A DNA stretch of 64,000 nt. Source: Cyanodermella asteris. Taxonomy: Eukaryota; Ascomycota; Lecanoromycetes; Ostropales; Stictidaceae. The stretch spans positions 1,654,519 through 1,718,518 of the forward strand of contig UYJD01000006.1 in the NCBI GenBank assembly GCA_900618795.1. The letters are read 5' to 3'. Made by a program: the position numbers and the translations under genes. Below the pieces are notes generated by a model that was given only the letters and a program-made list of their open reading frames with translations, was not told the origin of the DNA and did no database searches. Of this stretch, positions 1,173 to 60,159 are shown one piece after another (within the stretch, counting starts at the first letter, position 1; the number at the start of each line of letters is the position of its first letter).

Positions 1173-2394
1173 ATGAGAGTCGCCGTTGCTTTCAGCATCA
1201 CCGCTCTGATTGAAAGCGCCATCGCGTTCGCTGTCTCACCGGCCGTCACGATGGCCGCCATGCAGCCCGGCATAACACCGGGACCCAAACTCGACTTCGA
1301 TCTCCTCCGTCGTCGACCACCGTTGAGGGCTCGCGTGGCAACGCCAGACGAAAGCACTTGCGACTACTTCAGTGGCGATGCTGGTACGTTCGGAACCCGG
1401 CCATCGAAACTCAGATTACGCCGTGAACTTGTCTAACCTCTGATCTTTCCTCTCTCACAGCGCAACCTTATATCTGCGATCCGGGAATGCACTGTGCCTC
1501 GCAGACTTTTACTATAGACAACGAGGTATCCTCCCTCTGGGCTTGTCAGGACCCCTCCGAAACGGATCCTTCGTACCCGACGACGTGCCTGGATTCTTCG
1601 GCGTACTCTTCGCTCACGGCCGTCAGCTCGACGCCAGGTGACGGCACCGCGTGGTGGTAAGATCCTCGCAAACCCTCTCCTTCGCCGTCGAAACATCGTC
1701 TCGACGTCAAAAATCCGGCTTTCCGGACTCGGCGGGCTGACTTGATGTGCGCAGCTTTGCCGTGACGGCGGCCCTGTGTATACAGTATAAATTAGGCGAC
1801 TACATCTCCTGGGCCTGCGACTCCACGAGCACGGATCAGACGCTCGTCTTGACCGCCTCGACGACTCTCCCGACAACGACAACCCAAAGTGCGGCCCCGG
1901 CTACCGTTACGGTCCCACCTCCCTCGGCCACGAGCAGCAGCAGCCGCTCGCCGACGAGCTCGCCGACGGACTCCCCGCCTGCATCTTCTGGCCTGTCGAC
2001 CGGCGCGAAAGCCGGCATCGGCGTCGGCGTCGGCGTTGGCATCCCCGCTGCCGCCGCCGTCTTTGGTCTCGGCTTCTTCCTCTACCGCAGACATCAGAAG
2101 AACAAGTACGGCAAGGTACGGGCTAGCATCGTGCCGCACACTCCGGGTACGCCGGGTATGTCGGAGGGGGGAGCGGGAGGATACAGAGATGATGTTGGTG
2201 GCGGATGGCAAGCTGGCTATGGGGCGCCGGGTGAGATCAAGTTGGGGGCCGTTCCCGCCGCTGCGAGTGCGAAGGGTGCTTCGTCTGGCCCGGTGGAGGA
2301 CGGGGCACAGAACATTGTTGTCGGAGAGCTGGATGGAACGAGTGCAGGTCATGGCCAGGGAAATAGCCAGAGCCATGTAATGGAACTGGAGTAG
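1173..2394 (+). CDS. Cys-rich, single-pass membrane surface protein
   Basis: Predicted type I membrane protein of about 348 residues; no specific function recognised. Exons 1173-1383, 1461-1656 and 1755-2394 join in frame (introns 1384-1460 and 1657-1754). The N-terminus beginning MRVAVAFSITAL is a plausible signal peptide; an in-frame ATG also exists at 1128, but it would bury that signal. The ectodomain has about eight cysteines (residues ~60-160). It is followed by a Ser/Thr/Pro-rich stalk likely to be O-glycosylated, a Gly/Val/Ala-rich membrane segment (~228-250) ending in YRRHQKNK (stop-transfer), and a Gly-rich cytoplasmic tail. This layout is common among fungal wall-sensor-like and WSC/Mid2-like proteins, but the cysteine pattern is not a clear WSC domain. 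It is convergent with the Clr5-domain gene. The fold of the ectodomain is unknown to me. Confidence 0.75.
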
Positions 2395-2910
2395 TGGGCG
2401 TGACCGTGCAAGCGCTGACATGGTGATATTGCCGGACCGATGTTCGAGATTTGGTATCTGTCGAATTAATGCTCAAGCTCAGCCCAGTGAACACCATTTC
2501 TACCATTTGGTTGGGCTTAGGCCTTTTTTTCAGACGTGGCTTGGGTGTGAAGCCATCTACAAATGGGCCGTGTGAGCAGGAGGGCATCAAACGATCGCCG
2601 CACACAAGTTGAAGATGAAATTGGCCCATTTTAAGCTCGCGAATACGCGGACGGATTTCGCTATGCCAAGACCCACACAGCCTCGTCTGTTCCCGAAAAC
2701 AATGACGGGAAAAATTCATTGTACAAAGCCCCAAGAGTCGGCATGCTTTCGTTCCCTCTATCTTTTGTTTATTGCTTTTCAGCAACCACGTTTCTTCGCA
2801 ATCTCACTCTTGCCATGTCCACGCCGGCGACCATTCGCCCGTACTGCCAAGTTGATCGTCACCAAACTTTGTGTCGCTCGATAGCTCGAGCTTCCATACC
2901 GTTGACTGTG
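2395..2910. other. Intergenic between convergent genes
   Basis: The 516-bp region separates the 3' ends of two converging genes. Overlapping open frames are present, but none has protein-like composition. Probably 3' UTRs and terminators; no defined element seen. Confidence 0.5.
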
Positions 2911-52794: not shown

Positions 52795-53610
52795 GATGGG
52801 CCCGGGTGTGCCGTAGCGGACACTTTGCTATCCTTGCCATCGAACGTGCCTGAGGCGGAAGCTCGGGTACGGAGGAACGGACATATTGGAGGACCCTACT
52901 GGAAGTGAGTCTACGAGGAATCAGATTGTGAACTGTGGTGGACATTAGGGATCGGAGCGTCAGATTTCAGCAGATGATACAATGTGAAGCATCTGTCTGA
53001 TTGTGGCCAGTATCCAAGGCGAAGGTGTGATGAATGCAAGCGGCGAAAGAGAAGTGAGCACAGCCGGCGAAAGCATAGCAAGAGTAGTTGTTACTGTTTT
53101 ATTAGTATCTAGAATGTAATAGAACGACGACATGACTTCGAGCTCAAATGAGGACAGCTTCTCGCACAAGTGAGCTGCAAAGACTTGGCTTTTGGCCATG
53201 AGTCTCCGTCCGATGGTTCGGCGATTGAACATCCCCCACGACTAGATTCTGAACGCATACCAAGAATGTTTCACTGGTAACCCTGCAAAGCATCGGCCTC
53301 AAACAGATCACGTGAGGGAAAGCGCGAAAGCTCTTGGCGGAGCTGAGCTCCGGGCCGCCGCCACAGATCCAAAAATTATTTGCCATTGCGTCCGGAGCCG
53401 AGCGGCGAGCGGCATTAGCACTCGACCCAACCCACTCCCTTGGAACTGTCCACTACATAATCCCAACAAGGCCGTCTAGACAGCTCCAGGCATAACCGGA
53501 TTCGTTTCTTCTTTTCCCGGTCACCTACTCTCCATCGAGCCGACTTTCCCATTCCCTCTCTTCTCTCTAATTATCCCTTTCACTTTACACCCACCCACTC
53601 CCCAAAAACC
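52795..53610. other. Intergenic, ssd1 to sas10
   Basis: The 0.8 kb hold the ssd1 3' UTR and the sas10 promoter; a pyrimidine-rich tract precedes the sas10 ATG. No gene seen. Confidence 0.5.
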
Positions 53611-55704
53611 ATGGCCAAGAAACGCAAAGCCTCCGCCTCCGCCTCCGCCGCCGCCGCCGCGGCGAAAGGCTGGAGAGATCCCACACAGACGCTGGACAAC
53701 CACTACTCCGACCGGCGGTACGAGATGAACGTCCGATCGTGGGAGGATGTCGCCGACTCGCAAGACGAGTGGGATCTGCAGCGGGACGAGATCGCGATCG
53801 ATGAAGGGCCGGCGAGGAAGAGGGCGCGCAAGGCGAGGGAGGAGGCGCTGGCGCTGGAGGATAGTGAGGAGGAGGTTTTGGGGGTTGACAGCGATGTGGA
53901 CGACGAGGATGAGGTAGAAGAGGAGGGAGAAGGAGGAGGTGCTGAGGGAGACGAGGGAGACGAGGATAAGATGGAAGACGAAGAGGATGAAGAGGGCTGG
54001 GGCGCAGACGAGGCTTACGGCGCGGATGTAGCGGAGAATGAAGAGGATGCGAGGGAGATTGAACGGGAGGCGATAAGGTTGCAGAAGAAGCGGTTGCAAG
54101 GCATGACGGATGCGGACTTTGGGTTCGATGAGGCGGAGTGGATGAATGCCGACAAGGACGCCGACGCCGATGCGGATGCAGACGGTCTACAGGGCATGGG
54201 CTCTGGGTCGCATGTTGAGAAGTTACCTGACTTCATCGATACGGACGGCATTTCGGAGGAAGAACGGCATCGGATCCTCAGCGCACGATACCCGGAATTC
54301 GCGCCTTTGCGAAAGGAGTTTTTGGCGCTGGAGCCGGTTGCGGAGGAGATGGAGCCTGTGGCTTCTGCGGCGATGGAGAAGTTAGAGGAGGACTGGGAGG
54401 CTGCAAAGCGGAAGGGCGTCGACTCGGATAGGAGCGTTTTGCCGGGGGTGGTAGCGAAGTATCATGCTTTGACGGGCTATCTGGCTACGATTGCGATGTA
54501 TTTTGCAATCTTGACGAGCCCGGCTGCGGAAGCGGACGGTGGTGAGAGGGTTATGCCGTTGGACCCGAAGACTTTGCGGGAGCATTCGGTTATGGATGCT
54601 TTGGTTAGGACTAGGGCACTTTGGGAGAGGGTGCGAGATATGGACGTCGACGACAGCGATGCGATCGAGCACGAGGATGAAGTTAGCGTCAACGGCGATG
54701 GTAGTGATGAAGTTTCATTCTACACACCCATGCAATCTCCGATTGAGAAGTCGAAGCACGCCACAGCTGTTGCAGCTCAGCCCGAGTCTGTTCCTTCGAA
54801 GATCAGGACAAAATCCAAGACCAAAGCCCTTACGCCGGCCGAAAAAGCCGCCCTCAAAGCACGTGCCGAGAAGACCGCTCGCCGCGACGCTCAGCTCCGC
54901 AAACTTGACGAAGACATGGCCGCCTTAACAAAGACCATCACCTCAAGACGTACAAAACTCACGAAACCAACAGCAAATGCAGCGGCCATTGCCGACAACG
55001 ACTCCGACTTTGGCGACGAAACCACTCTCACAGCCCACGAAGCCGCAGAGAAAGCTAAACGGAAAAAGTCTCTCCGATTCTACACGTCGCAAATCGCACA
55101 AAAGGTCAACAAGCGCGATGTGGCATTGCAAAATGGTGGTGGAGATGCAGATCTCCCTTATCGCGAACGCCTCAAAGACCGCGTCGCGCGCCTCAACGCC
55201 GAAGCCGAAGCTCGCGGTAAAAAGAAGGGAACCGCGGACCACGATCTGGGCTCCGACTCAGGTAACGACTCTGACGACCGCCTTGCTAAGGAGATCCGCT
55301 CCTCAGCCACCGCGCACGACGATGATGACAACGACGAAGAAGAAGACTACTACCAGACCATCGCCTCCGCCAGCGCAGCAAAGAAACAAACCAACGCCCT
55401 CCGCCGCGCCGCCCAAAAGGAGGCCGCACTGCTCGGCGGCGGCGCGGCGGTCCGCGAAGTGGAGACGGTGGGACCCGACGGGAAGAGGGCGATTGGGTAT
55501 ACGATTGAGAAGAACAAGGGGCTGATGCCGCATCGGAAGAAGGCGGTCAGGAATCCGAGGGTTAAGAAGAAGGAGGCTTTCGAGAAGAAGAAGAAGAAGT
55601 TGGGCAGTGTTAGGCAGGTTTGGAAGGGAGGGGAGGGAAGGGGGGGATATGGGGGCGAATTGACGGGTATCAAGAGTGGGTTGGTGAGGGCTGTCAAGTT
55701 GTAG
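53611..55704 (+). CDS. sas10: Sas10/Utp3, small-subunit processome component
   Basis: Nucleolar protein of the U3 snoRNP / SSU processome, needed for 18S rRNA maturation; 697 residues in one exon. Basic start MAKKRK, a very acidic region (~85-140, long Glu/Asp runs), LQGMTDADFGFDEAEW, the Sas10/Utp3/C1D homology (~215-310; SARYPEFAPLRKEF and KYHALTGYLATIAMYF), a Lys/Arg-rich linker, and the conserved C-terminal Sas10 domain (~615-697). The latter has GPDGKRAIGYTIEKNKGLMP, HRKKAVRNPRVKKKEAF and GYGGELTGIKSGL. The order and end are diagnostic. No intron is needed. The GC-rich acidic segment is of low complexity and may vary in length between strains. Confidence 0.95.
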   Translation: MAKKRKASASASAAAAAAKGWRDPTQTLDNHYSDRRYEMNVRSWEDVADSQDEWDLQRDEIAIDEGPARKRARKAREEALALEDSEEEVLGVDSDVDDEDEVEEEGEGGGAEGDEGDEDKMEDEEDEEGWGADEAYGADVAENEEDAREIEREAIRLQKKRLQGMTDADFGFDEAEWMNADKDADADADADGLQGMGSGSHVEKLPDFIDTDGISEEERHRILSARYPEFAPLRKEFLALEPVAEEMEPVASAAMEKLEEDWEAAKRKGVDSDRSVLPGVVAKYHALTGYLATIAMYFAILTSPAAEADGGERVMPLDPKTLREHSVMDALVRTRALWERVRDMDVDDSDAIEHEDEVSVNGDGSDEVSFYTPMQSPIEKSKHATAVAAQPESVPSKIRTKSKTKALTPAEKAALKARAEKTARRDAQLRKLDEDMAALTKTITSRRTKLTKPTANAAAIADNDSDFGDETTLTAHEAAEKAKRKKSLRFYTSQIAQKVNKRDVALQNGGGDADLPYRERLKDRVARLNAEAEARGKKKGTADHDLGSDSGNDSDDRLAKEIRSSATAHDDDDNDEEEDYYQTIASASAAKKQTNALRRAAQKEAALLGGGAAVREVETVGPDGKRAIGYTIEKNKGLMPHRKKAVRNPRVKKKEAFEKKKKKLGSVRQVWKGGEGRGGYGGELTGIKSGLVRAVKL

Positions 55705-56503: not shown

Positions 56504-59019
56504 ATGTCCTCGAGCAATCAATCTGCAGGCGTTAGGTGAGTTGAAGACTCAAGGGCCCCACGAAGGGTCGCATCTGACAATAGTTCAGATATGCGTGCCC
56601 AGATCCAACGTGCAACAGGTCGTTCGCTCGAGCGGCCGATCTGTCGCGCCATCTCAGCACAGTGCATCGACAGGATAATAATACGCTCATCGAGTGCGAA
56701 TTCAAATGGTGTGGCAGAACCGGAGATCGTGGCTTCGTCCGTCCGGACCACTACTGGGACCACGTCCGAGAAGTACATCAACAAGATATCGCCATGCGCA
56801 GATTTGCAGGGGGCTCGCGGGCAACGTCTCAGAGGAAGGTATCACCGGGCAATCGACAAAATGATACGGCTTTCGCAAAGGCGCAGGCTGATTCACTGAT
56901 CGACTGCGAATTTGGATGGGGGATAAATGATCGGTACCAGGGCCATGCAGACCAAGACATCATGGACGAGTCTTGGCTTGCGTCTTTATCAGAAAATCAA
57001 GTTGCTAAGGCCAGGCGGCGGAAGCAGAACCGCGATGCACGGATACGCTACCGCGAGCGAAAGCAGGCGGTTCAGCAGGATATGAAGCAACATCCCGAGC
57101 AGGAAGAAAAAAGTCTTAACGAATATCCTTCAGAGGCCACGCCTACTAGCTCAGGCAAGGCCCGGAAAGTCACAGGCTCAGGGGTGTCCCAAAAGGAGCC
57201 TATTGTTGTTGGTTCTTGCGAGTTTTGTCGACAGCTGGGATTACGCTGTTCAGGAACATATCCAACGTGCGCGATGTGCTCCAAGTCCCGGAGTTACTGT
57301 TCTTTTCAAGATAGTGAGCGGCCCACTATACCGAATGCTCCAACGGAGGCAACTTCGAAACTGGCATCGGCAGGTGTAGAGATAGAATTGCCACAGCGTC
57401 TGTATCAGGCAAACAATGGAGACGATGATGCTAACGATGACGAACACAACGAATATGGCTACGATTCTGACTTTGAGGTTAACTGGCTTCCCGATATGCT
57501 CCATCGCATGAGCGACGGTTGGGATAAGGCCCCACCAGACAGCGTTGCCAATTCGGACGTCGACGGCAACACTCCGCGTGGAAAAAGAGAAACTAATCGT
57601 GATGCTTCAAAGGGAGTTTCCGAATCAAAATCCAGTAACAAATTTCCTGGCCTGGGTCCGGATTTCAATCTACACTACAAGGGGCCGCAACCTGTATCCC
57701 AATTCAAGGACGTTGGCGAGTCGATACCAACTCTGGCAATTACCACTCCGCTCAGCGCCGGACATACGCTCGATGTTGAAGACATTCTCCCAGCCGACCA
57801 GAATATCACGTATCAAGCTTCGAATGCACCAGAGATCCAATTTAAGTCATCGGATGCCGAAAGCGTGGACGGCAATGACATCAATTTTCGAGATCTTGCC
57901 GACTTCAGGCCGGCACCAATAGCCAGACAGGCACAAGCTACTTCAGTCAGCGACTTTGCGCGAGGTGGAACAGCGCTTACTTATTCGATTGCAGCGCCGG
58001 TGTTGCATCCATTGGTGCCTCGAGGTTCCCACTCACACTTTGAGCATACTGCATGGAAAGATTTCTTTCGTGTAACGGACTCAGCGGAGATCGAGACTGA
58101 TCTGGGTCTGAGCTCCAAGGAGATGCGATATGACACCGAGCCAAGAGATAGTGCGTCCGACGCGCGAGAAAAATCTCAGCGCACCTCTTCGAGCGGTGCC
58201 TCGAAAGCTTCTGTCGAGCGCGAATCTCCGCATCCGTATGTGGGCTCTCAACACCACAGCGCCCGATATGGAGATGACTCGACGATTACTGAGAGACCTC
58301 CTGTTGTCGAAGTTGAAGCAGGCAGTTCGAACAAATCCACACCCCCAATTGATCACTCCAACTTGACAGACGAAGGGGAAAATGAGCGCCGCGCCATAGT
58401 GGACGCACTCAGAAGATGCATACTGAGCGTTCCAGCGGCAGATGTAGACCATTGCAAGCTCATGAGGGAAGCTTCGTCCTACATCCAGTACCTCGAGAGT
58501 CACCGTCGTACCCAGGAAGCAGAACTTAGAGATATGGCACTTGTTCCGACTCCTCGGTCTATGATATTAGAGACGACGAACGATGAAGCGTCCAAGGAAA
58601 GTGACGTTAATGCCCAAATCCGAACGGACCAAGCCATCGGTGGCGGGACTTTATTTCCGTTGTACTCTCCACAAGCGTTGCCCTATCCGACGGTGGTAGC
58701 ACCAGACTATGCACTCTTCCCTGCAGCTCTGGAACGGGACAAAGCCTTCAATCTCGTAAGTGAAACATCGGATGCGAGAACCATTCACGATCGTTCGACG
58801 CAAACCATGTTCAGCGATGAGCATTCATCACAATCTATACAGGAACATCAAGCAAAGAGTCACGACTGCACGACAGTGGTTGTGAACGACTGCGGGTTCA
58901 GCTCCAGTGTGGGTGAGACCAGGAAAGGATCGTGGACAATCTATGAAGCTTCAAATGTTTCATTGAAGGATCGGCTGCAACTCCAGGCTGAGAAGTACAC
59001 ATCGTGCGAATGGAACTAG
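56504..59019 (+). CDS. Composite transcription factor: two C2H2 fingers, bZIP-like basic region, Zn2Cys6 cluster, HLH-like segment
   Basis: Predicted nuclear regulator of about 820 residues. Exon 1, 56504-56535 (MSSSNQSAGV), splices over a 53-nt intron (branch CTGAC, acceptor TTCAG at 56588) to exon 2, 56589-59019. The join completes finger 1: C14-x4-C19-x12-H32-x4-H37 with RSFARAADLSRHLSTVH. Finger 2 is C47-x4-C52-x16-H69-x4-H74. A basic region (~149-169, ARRRKQNRDARIRYRERK) fits the bZIP rule N-x2-A-x3-Y-R, but no leucine heptad follows. A full Zn2Cys6 cluster is C221-x2-C224-x6-C231-x6-C238-x2-C241-x6-C248. Acidic/Ser-rich stretches follow, then an HLH-like pair (~609-652; RRAIVDALRRCILSVP, loop, KLMREASSYIQYLES). 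The first two types and Zn2Cys6 are clear; the bZIP and HLH readings are inference. Target genes unknown. Confidence 0.8.
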
Positions 59020-59355
59020 TGGCCTCTGCAAAATCCCCGCTTGATCCCGCGCCCCGGGCATCTAGGACTGTCTTATCGATGTCAGGCAAGTAATCGTTTT
59101 ATGACTAACACGGAATCCATTTAATCAAAGCATTAGGGCTGCACGAGCACAGCTTACTTCGAGGTTCTCGAGGAAGTAGCTCGTCACTTAGCACCAAGTC
59201 AATGGCTGAAGGACGATTTCCAAGCTGCCACCAGTACCCCGTCAAATGGGCCACCAACCGCAAATGAAGAAGGAGCTCGCCGATTAGCATCGAGTCGATT
59301 ACCGAAGGACAGTCTCCAGGACACCAACAGTCATCCGCCAGGCGGTTCATCAACC
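59020..59355. other. Spacer with in-frame, protein-like extension
   Basis: The frame of the next gene is open upstream from 59356 back to a TAG at about 59134 and reads protein-like (YFEVLEEVARHLAPSQWLKD), but has no ATG. A spliced upstream exon is likely; candidate start ATG at about 59080 (donor GTAATC) gives a wrong phase, so the first exon is not resolved. Confidence 0.4.
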
Positions 59356-60159
59356 ATGACCGAGGAAGGATCAGTGGGAAGTGCAGCCTTATATTCCGGC
59401 ACCTCATCAAGTCAAAACAGGATCGTTGCCCGAGCGCCAACGAACAGATCAGCAAGTCAGCCTCGAGGCAACCAAGTCATCACCTCAAATCCCTCCAATA
59501 ATCCAACGCCATCATCCAGAACCGTAAGTTCTTCAACACATATTCTTCTCTGCTACGGCAGCCTCCCACCCAAGTACAGAACCATCAAAGTTCAAAACGG
59601 ATATCGAGACCGCCTCCTCATGCGCGGCATCCGAACCCACCTTCGTGACATGATGGGCTGGTTCAAATTCTACTTTTACTGGGAAGGTTTCGGGTGGCGC
59701 GAATTTCTCGAATTTCGTCGTCTCAACAAACACTATCTCGAGAAACTCCGCCCCGGAGTCCCCGACCCAGCAGATGAAGCATACGTCTTCGATCCACAGC
59801 CCCCCAAACACAACCCGCCGATTTCGAGACAGGGCTGGCGGATGCGGTATTATCACTGCAAGTGTGTGGAAGGAAACGATATGACGGTCCGGCAGATACC
59901 GAAACGCAAGTTGGGGTTCTTTGATTCAATGAATGATGATGAGGTGGTGGTGTATGGTTTGGATATACAGCTGCAGCCTTTGCTTTGGCGGGTACTGGTC
60001 TGGCAAGCGGTGATACTTGCGGGGCCGCTGGCGTTTTGGATTTATTGGTTGACGACTCACGATGGGGACTGGCAGAACGCGACTGCTTTGATGCTTGTTA
60101 CGATTGCTCTGATGGAATCATCTTTCTTGATTCCATTGAACGGACATTTCAGAAATTGA
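59356..60159 (+). CDS. Uncharacterised fungal protein with C-terminal two-helix membrane region
   Basis: 267 codons from the ATG at 59356. A Ser/Asn-rich disordered head is followed by a globular domain of a kind I recall from uncharacterised filamentous-fungal proteins: ILLCYGSLPPKYRTIKV, then MRGIRTHLRDMMGWFKFYFY, EFLEFRRLNKHYLEKLRPG, a Trp/His-rich stretch RQGWRMRYYHCKC, and KRKLGFFDSM. Two membrane helices end the protein (~residues 213-235, LVWQAVILAGPLAFWIYWL, and ~243-262, TALMLVTIALMESSFLIPL). No catalytic motif is visible. The N-terminus is probably longer (see the preceding spacer). It sits tail-to-tail with mdm1, 35 bp apart. Function unknown. Confidence 0.7.
   Translation: MTEEGSVGSAALYSGTSSSQNRIVARAPTNRSASQPRGNQVITSNPSNNPTPSSRTVSSSTHILLCYGSLPPKYRTIKVQNGYRDRLLMRGIRTHLRDMMGWFKFYFYWEGFGWREFLEFRRLNKHYLEKLRPGVPDPADEAYVFDPQPPKHNPPISRQGWRMRYYHCKCVEGNDMTVRQIPKRKLGFFDSMNDDEVVVYGLDIQLQPLLWRVLVWQAVILAGPLAFWIYWLTTHDGDWQNATALMLVTIALMESSFLIPLNGHFRN

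Follow-up and report, generated by a model that had tools for sequence, protein, structure and literature searches.

Whole-gene duplication is regarded as the main route by which fungi enlarge their sets of regulators, and dual-specificity factors show that domains recombine too. In a survey of 191 fungal genomes (Shelest 2017, PMC5415576), the combinations counted include a Zn cluster with C2H2 fingers (140 genomes), the same pair with a homeodomain (64 genomes), bZIP with HLH (22 genomes), a Zn cluster with bZIP (10 genomes), and bZIP with C2H2 (9 genomes); the survey's table takes in only types present in at least five genomes. Stepwise decay of one module in dual factors is described in the same source. 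For M. oryzae, 49 of 495 factors are given as having more than one DNA-binding domain (PMC3675110). The Cmr1/Pig1 type of dual factor, with nine representatives in A. nidulans, is described as having two C2H2 fingers and then a Zn cluster, all N-terminal and tightly placed (PMC5415576). SKN-1 of C. elegans, which features a CNC motif and an N-terminal arm, is reported to bind as a monomer through a basic region that lacks a zipper (PMC9756947).

The gene discussed here lies in a 64,000-nucleotide stretch of the Cyanodermella asteris genome (contig UYJD01000006.1, positions 1,654,519 to 1,718,518), which we call the window. As read from the sequence, it combines a pair of intact zinc fingers with three further modules, worn or incomplete, of other DNA-binding families: a basic region of bZIP type, a Zn2Cys6 cluster, and a helical hairpin resembling an HLH. 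All four had been named in the original prediction. The C2H2 pair, the basic region, and the cluster are sound, and the HLH-like element, for which the evidence consists of a two-block score, an AlphaFold hairpin, and weak matches to Max, is probable. C2H2 and Zn2Cys6 domains are thus present in one protein, as in the definition of a dual-specificity factor (PMC5415576), and the gene seems best read as a further variant among the known dual-specificity fungal factors.

The original prediction had also supposed that fungal factors mostly carry one domain type and that C2H2 with Zn2Cys6, though known, is uncommon. Factors with several domain types are a regular part of fungal genomes, and this pairing is common, being present in 140 of the 191 genomes of the survey (PMC5415576). 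The prediction had further called the combination, to its knowledge, undescribed. The full set is absent from the survey's table of types found in at least five genomes (PMC5415576), and our searches of the open-licence PMC literature turned up no protein described as uniting C2H2, bZIP, Zn cluster, and HLH; the same table does list pairings of bZIP with other domains. Like the Cmr1/Pig1 type, the window protein has two C2H2 fingers and then a Zn cluster toward its N terminus, a likeness in the order of domains as described. Unlike that type, it has about 147 residues, the basic region among them, between fingers and cluster, lacks equivalents of Lys17 and Lys18 in the cluster, and carries an added HLH-like hairpin. 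What it has in common with SKN-1 is a basic region without a zipper, which is an analogy of mechanism and not a family claim.

Gene structure

The coordinates of the gene, its modules, and the related loci are collected in Table 1. The four modules lie in one continuous exon, as originally predicted, within a frame that is open from 56584 to 59019 on the + strand (811 codons, with a TAG stop at 59017-59019) and in which the C2H2 ligands and the six cysteines are all kept. Given the base composition of the frame itself, the chance of 810 stop-free codons is about 6e-17. Exon 1 joins exon 2 in frame to give a predicted spliced protein of 820 amino acids, for which a search of ncbifam returned no family. 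Residue numbers of the hairpin refer to P0001, the 810-residue translation of exon 2 from 56587. The predicted gene start, which coincides with the first base of the region singled out in the original prediction, is supported by the ATG at 56504, by the 53-nt GT-AG intron, and by a paralog, L008, in which an intron of the same phase occupies the corresponding position and has its first 11 bases identical to those of intron 1. The exon 1 of L008 is similar as well (MSSNNGSND..) and precedes its C2H2 exon.

Table 1. Features of the regulator gene in window positions, followed by related loci in their own coordinates
Feature	Position	Strand	Description	Basis
Exon 1	56504-56535	+	Starts with ATG; 10 codons (MSSSNQSAGV) and the first 2 nt (AG) of an Arg codon	Sequence; predicted
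Intron 1	56536-56588	+	53 nt, GT-AG, GTGAGTTGAAG...TTCAG, phase 2	Sequence; predicted
Exon 2	56589-59019	+	Single open frame up to TAG	
C2H2 finger 1	56596-56667	+	C-X4-C-X12-H-X4-H, ligands intact	
C2H2 finger 2	56695-56778	+	Ligands intact; 16 residues from second Cys to first His, longer than usual	
Stretch homologous to bZIP gene G000:C5:1734290	56986-57090	+	105 bp; identity drops on both sides	
bZIP-type basic region	57007-57063	+	KARRRKQNRDARIRYRERK; no leucine zipper after it	
Zn2Cys6 cluster	57217-57300	+	C-X2-C-X6-C-X6-C-X2-C-X6-C, six cysteines intact	
Probable HLH-like helical hairpin	58378-58548	+	Helix 1 about P0001 598-616, helix 2 about 623-654; without basic part	
ORF2	59137-60159	+	340 aa, directly downstream; no ATG before 59356	
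L008	3370-3700 of L008 (locus on G000:C15)	-	Small intact gene, about 98 codons, two-finger C2H2 module only	
L009	3293-3520	+	Copy of two-finger module, 65% identity, short frame	
L012	About 2230-2481	+	Weaker two-finger copy, stop inside match	
L088	G000:C6:1684960-1685160		Zn2Cys6 cluster, CRDRGVAC, Gly at loop position 18	

The sequence gives no sign that the four modules are split between transcripts, which agrees with what had been proposed. The further claim, that the arrangement is not a gene-fusion artefact, holds as far as the assembly is concerned; as to origin, a natural mosaic is likely, with one part matching a C2H2 gene and another a bZIP gene. Beyond its own genome the protein found no relatives in collections of viral and prokaryote contigs, which are poor ground for fungal genes.

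The C2H2 finger pair

Finger 1 scores below the cut-off of the Pfam zf-C2H2 model (PF00096; E 0.0024, 18.7 bits against 25.2), and the paralogous finger of L008 scores above it, at 28.6 bits. In the PDB, finger 1 matches the Zif268 variant 1a1i (E 9.4e-4), whose peptide is the "RADR" variant. The reading positions are R-A-D-R in finger 1 and R-x-D-H in finger 2, which, under the zinc-finger code, would point to a G-rich site of nGG-GC(A/G) type.

The finger pair is 74% identical in protein sequence to L008 and 65% identical to L009, and finger 2, with its long internal spacing, is conserved in both. Between the window gene and L008, synonymous sites in the pair are saturated (pS 0.85) and nonsynonymous differences are few (pN 0.16), which together mean that the C2H2 module has long been under constraint in one lineage or both. 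L008 has exon 1 and intron 1 in common with the window gene, along with the finger pair; it differs from it in ending after about 98 residues, without basic region, cluster, or hairpin. Of all the modules, the C2H2 pair alone looks fully equipped for DNA reading. L009 and L012 are possibly relics of the two-finger module.

The basic region and a bZIP gene 23 kb away

The basic region stays under the cut-off of Pfam bZIP_1 (PF00170; 27.6 bits), both in a search with the whole protein (E 0.11, 13.1 bits) and with the basic segment alone (E 0.0045, 17.5 bits); the segment also has a weak match to Sas10 (E 0.064). Its own genome is more telling. With 51% identity (E 2.8e-10), the basic region matches an ORF at G000:C5:1734290 (L010 1816-3108), which exceeds the Pfam cut-offs of both bZIP_1 and bZIP_2 and has a basic region of the same LSExQxAKAxRxxQNRDAxxRxREKK type. 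This bZIP gene lies about 23 kb downstream of the window gene on the same contig; for a 28.5-Mb genome, simple arithmetic puts the chance of a homologue falling within 23 kb on either side at about 0.16%.

The similarity extends to the DNA, at 78.2% identity over 101 bp, with 80 of the 105 bases of the core matching. It ends sharply on both sides: successive 30-base blocks of the left flank have 5, 5, and 9 matches, with 18 in the one reaching into the core; those of the right flank have 13, 12, 9, and 7. Over the 35 codons compared with the bZIP gene, dN is 0.215 and dS is 0.665, a dN/dS of about 0.3. A bZIP profile built from 11 of the 16 matches in the same genome (13 were extracted, two with an in-frame stop were dropped, and three weak ones were left out) gives the basic region 18.6 bits; the highest score among 4000 shuffles is 6.9 bits. 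Leaving the neighbour gene out of the profile changes the values to 12.9 bits for the basic region and 6.8 bits for the highest shuffle.

By homology, then, the basic region is a genuine bZIP descendant. The simplest account would be that a short piece was copied, in either direction, between the window gene and the bZIP gene, given the 78.2% DNA identity with its abrupt edges, the closeness of the two genes, and a profile score above that of every shuffle. The original prediction had hung on homology to bZIP and HLH domains: the first is found here, and the second, discussed below, is borderline.

The descendant is incomplete. The bZIP gene has a zipper; the window protein has none and otherwise shows no homology to that gene. 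Directly after the basic region, where a leucine zipper was looked for, homology to the neighbour ends at about 57090, and there are prolines and no heptads. AlphaFold draws a helix at residues 136-168 despite the missing zipper, within an N-terminal model that is poor (mean pLDDT 43.9); for the same reason, no predicted fold supports the fingers or the cluster. The Asn-X7-Arg signature is kept (NRDARIRYR). Four residues past the signature Asn stands an Arg, at a position that is Ala or Gln in 13 of 13 bZIPs of this genome, and for this reason the basic region may not read a bZIP site.

The Zn2Cys6 cluster

The Zn2Cys6 cluster is over the cut-off of Pfam Zn_clus (PF00172; E 7e-5, 23.3 bits against 21). 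Its spacing, 2-6-6-2-6, fits the pattern CX2CX6CX5-12CX2CX6-8C, and GAL4 and LAC9 align to it with E values of about 6e-4. GAL4 reads CGG through two loop lysines, Lys17 and Lys18. In the alignment, the first loop of the window cluster, RQLGLR, places Leu-Gly opposite them.

We compared the loop with Zn clusters of the same genome, examining 50 of 103 (the best 30 and 20 weaker ones), of which 46 fit the pattern (30 and 16, respectively). At position 18, 45 of the 46 carry K, R, or H (30/30 of the best, 15/16 of the weaker), and the remaining one, L088, carries Gly. At position 17 the residue is basic in 34 and non-basic in 12 of the 46, so that position 18 alone is telling; every one of the 46 has a basic residue at one or both of these positions. 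The cluster of the window protein probably folds, and its usual CGG reading is doubtful, with Leu-Gly in place of Lys17-Lys18.

The HLH-like hairpin

The hairpin is the weakest-supported of the four modules. The Pfam HLH model, at E values up to 10, has no match in the whole protein, in an 87-aa segment, or in a 94-aa segment, and across the whole genome at the same threshold it has 10 places, the hairpin not among them. Foldseek returned no PDB matches for the hairpin model. A single-sequence AlphaFold prediction has two helices here (P0001 595-613 and 620-651), with pLDDT blocks of 86-93 in the helices, a mean of 72.5, and a pTM of 0.32. Among PDB sequences the segment has 13 matches at E values up to 10; a leucine-rich repeat protein heads the list (E 0.36), and seven are Max (E 0.42-0.58), none of these Max matches being significant.

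A two-block bHLH score was built from bHLH domains of the same genome only, using six of the eight near-full ones (L024 and L025 were excluded because they are incomplete or atypical where the blocks begin or end; L023 and L026, which are short, had been set aside before and are not among the eight). It peaks exactly at the hairpin with a value of 19.6, to which helix 2 contributes 15.5. One of 2000 whole-protein shuffles attains that value, as does one of 2000 block shuffles; none of the other ORFs in the window with a length of 150 aa or more, 75 in number, does so. The value lies under those of all six true bHLH domains when each is left out (22.1-38.0). A profile from HLH domains of the same genome gives 3.9 bits on helix 2 only, a value equalled or exceeded by 6 of 4000 shuffles, and a core-trimmed version gives 4.5 bits, again on helix 2 only, with a best shuffle of 4.4. 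A regular expression for the hairpin matches 0 of 20000 shuffles and has four hits across the six-frame translation (364,512 residues), of which three are true bHLHs; this result is weak, since the pattern was fitted to a protein already seen, includes a Cys, and matches only three of the eight true controls.

The spacing of core hydrophobic residues in the hairpin appears to resemble that of a bHLH core, as in Max and other bHLH-zip proteins. It differs from them in having no basic part: the His/Glu/Arg E-box contacts before helix 1, looked for by eye against Max and the bHLHs of the same genome, are absent, and an acidic DEGENE stands there instead. The hairpin is probably a non-basic, HLH-like dimer element and not a bHLH.

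Interpretation of the probable mosaic

Apart from the C2H2 pair, the modules mostly look impaired for reading DNA. Four DNA readers in one protein are not supported, given the missing zipper, the missing Lys17 and Lys18 equivalents, and an HLH without a basic part. We propose instead, as a reading with about an even chance of being correct, an 820-residue nuclear regulator assembled from parts of other regulator genes, in which the C2H2 pair would read DNA and the hairpin would dimerise. Exon 1, intron 1, and the finger pair are paralogous to a family of small genes of this genome that encode two fingers. Some 105 bp with the bZIP basic region would derive from the bZIP gene now 23 kb off, the zipper having been left behind. 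The Zn2Cys6 cluster would come next in this assembly, and the putative HLH-like hairpin lies close to the C terminus.

In such a protein the C2H2 pair would be the main DNA reader. The zipper-less basic region may make phosphate or half-site contacts and serve in nuclear import, as in monomeric SKN-1, and the protein would presumably be located in the nucleus. The Zn cluster would be folded on two zincs with its usual CGG-reading lysines lost. If the hairpin does dimerise, two C2H2 units would come to sit on paired sites.

An alternative, which we think rather unlikely, is an ordinary C2H2 and Zn2Cys6 dual-specificity factor whose basic stretch is only a nuclear localization signal (NLS) of bZIP descent and whose hairpin is a chance amphipathic helical pair, so that no module besides fingers and cluster would bind DNA or mediate dimerisation. 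The cluster is the one module above its Pfam cut-off, the order of two C2H2 fingers and then one Zn cluster is that described for the nine A. nidulans factors (PMC5415576), and neither Pfam nor Foldseek detects an HLH. Such a factor would, however, have to accommodate 35 codons of bZIP homology, longer than a simple NLS, with the signature Asn and Arg kept and a dN/dS of about 0.3, as well as an HLH-like score reached by only 2 of 4000 shuffles. Its cluster would be unusual in lacking both contact residues, and its fingers and cluster, about 147 residues apart, are not tightly placed.

The losses in the basic region and the hairpin are exactly complementary, one being without a zipper and the other without a basic part. 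This would suit a C2H2-led four-module protein in which the two act as one dimeric reader: the hairpin as dimer interface, the distant and locally copied basic region as DNA contact, and the fingers extending recognition to a composite site. If true, complementary halves of two classical families would have been rebuilt into one reader in one protein. We consider this improbable, as about 440 residues of mostly disordered-looking composition lie between the two, the HLH identity is unproven given the negative Pfam and Foldseek searches, and the basic region has its unusual Arg. It is equally improbable that the gene is a decaying or rarely expressed mosaic whose later modules have no function, a reading in line with the contact residues gone from three of the four modules, the short or stop-bearing C2H2 copies L009 and L012, the loss of domains described in C2H2 and Zn cluster factors (PMC5415576), and the null expression reported for the dual factor AN3391 (PMC8396895), but at odds with a stop-free frame of 811 codons (random chance 6e-17), with all the zinc ligands in place in both the fingers (Cys/His) and the cluster (Cys), and with strong constraint on the C2H2 module.

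If the regulator was assembled from parts, the true bZIP gene that probably supplied one of its modules still lies only 23 kb away, with recognisable DNA identity. Because this probable donor and a single-module relative of the N-terminal part with the same first intron are both present, the steps of mosaic formation should be directly comparable across related species, and the question of which modules still read DNA after such formation is open to simple binding tests.

Neighboring frames

ORF2 is single copy in the genome, and no Pfam family is above cut-off in it. Two in-frame donor-acceptor pairs would connect the regulator to ORF2, one from 58756 (GTAAGTG) to 59137 and the other from 58913 (GTGAGAC) to 59153, and the regulator gene could continue into it. 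Against this count the own ATG of ORF2 at 59356 and a noncoding-like repeat of 66 bp in its 5' part, where the differences fall 4, 8, and 7 times on the three codon positions and thus carry no coding signature. The four modules would be unaffected by such splicing, since both donors lie beyond the hairpin. On the other side of the regulator, the upstream gene at 53461-55704 (+) is a Sas10/Utp3 ribosome-biogenesis factor, with Pfam matches to Sas10 (E 1.5e-27) and Sas10_Utp3 (E 7e-8).
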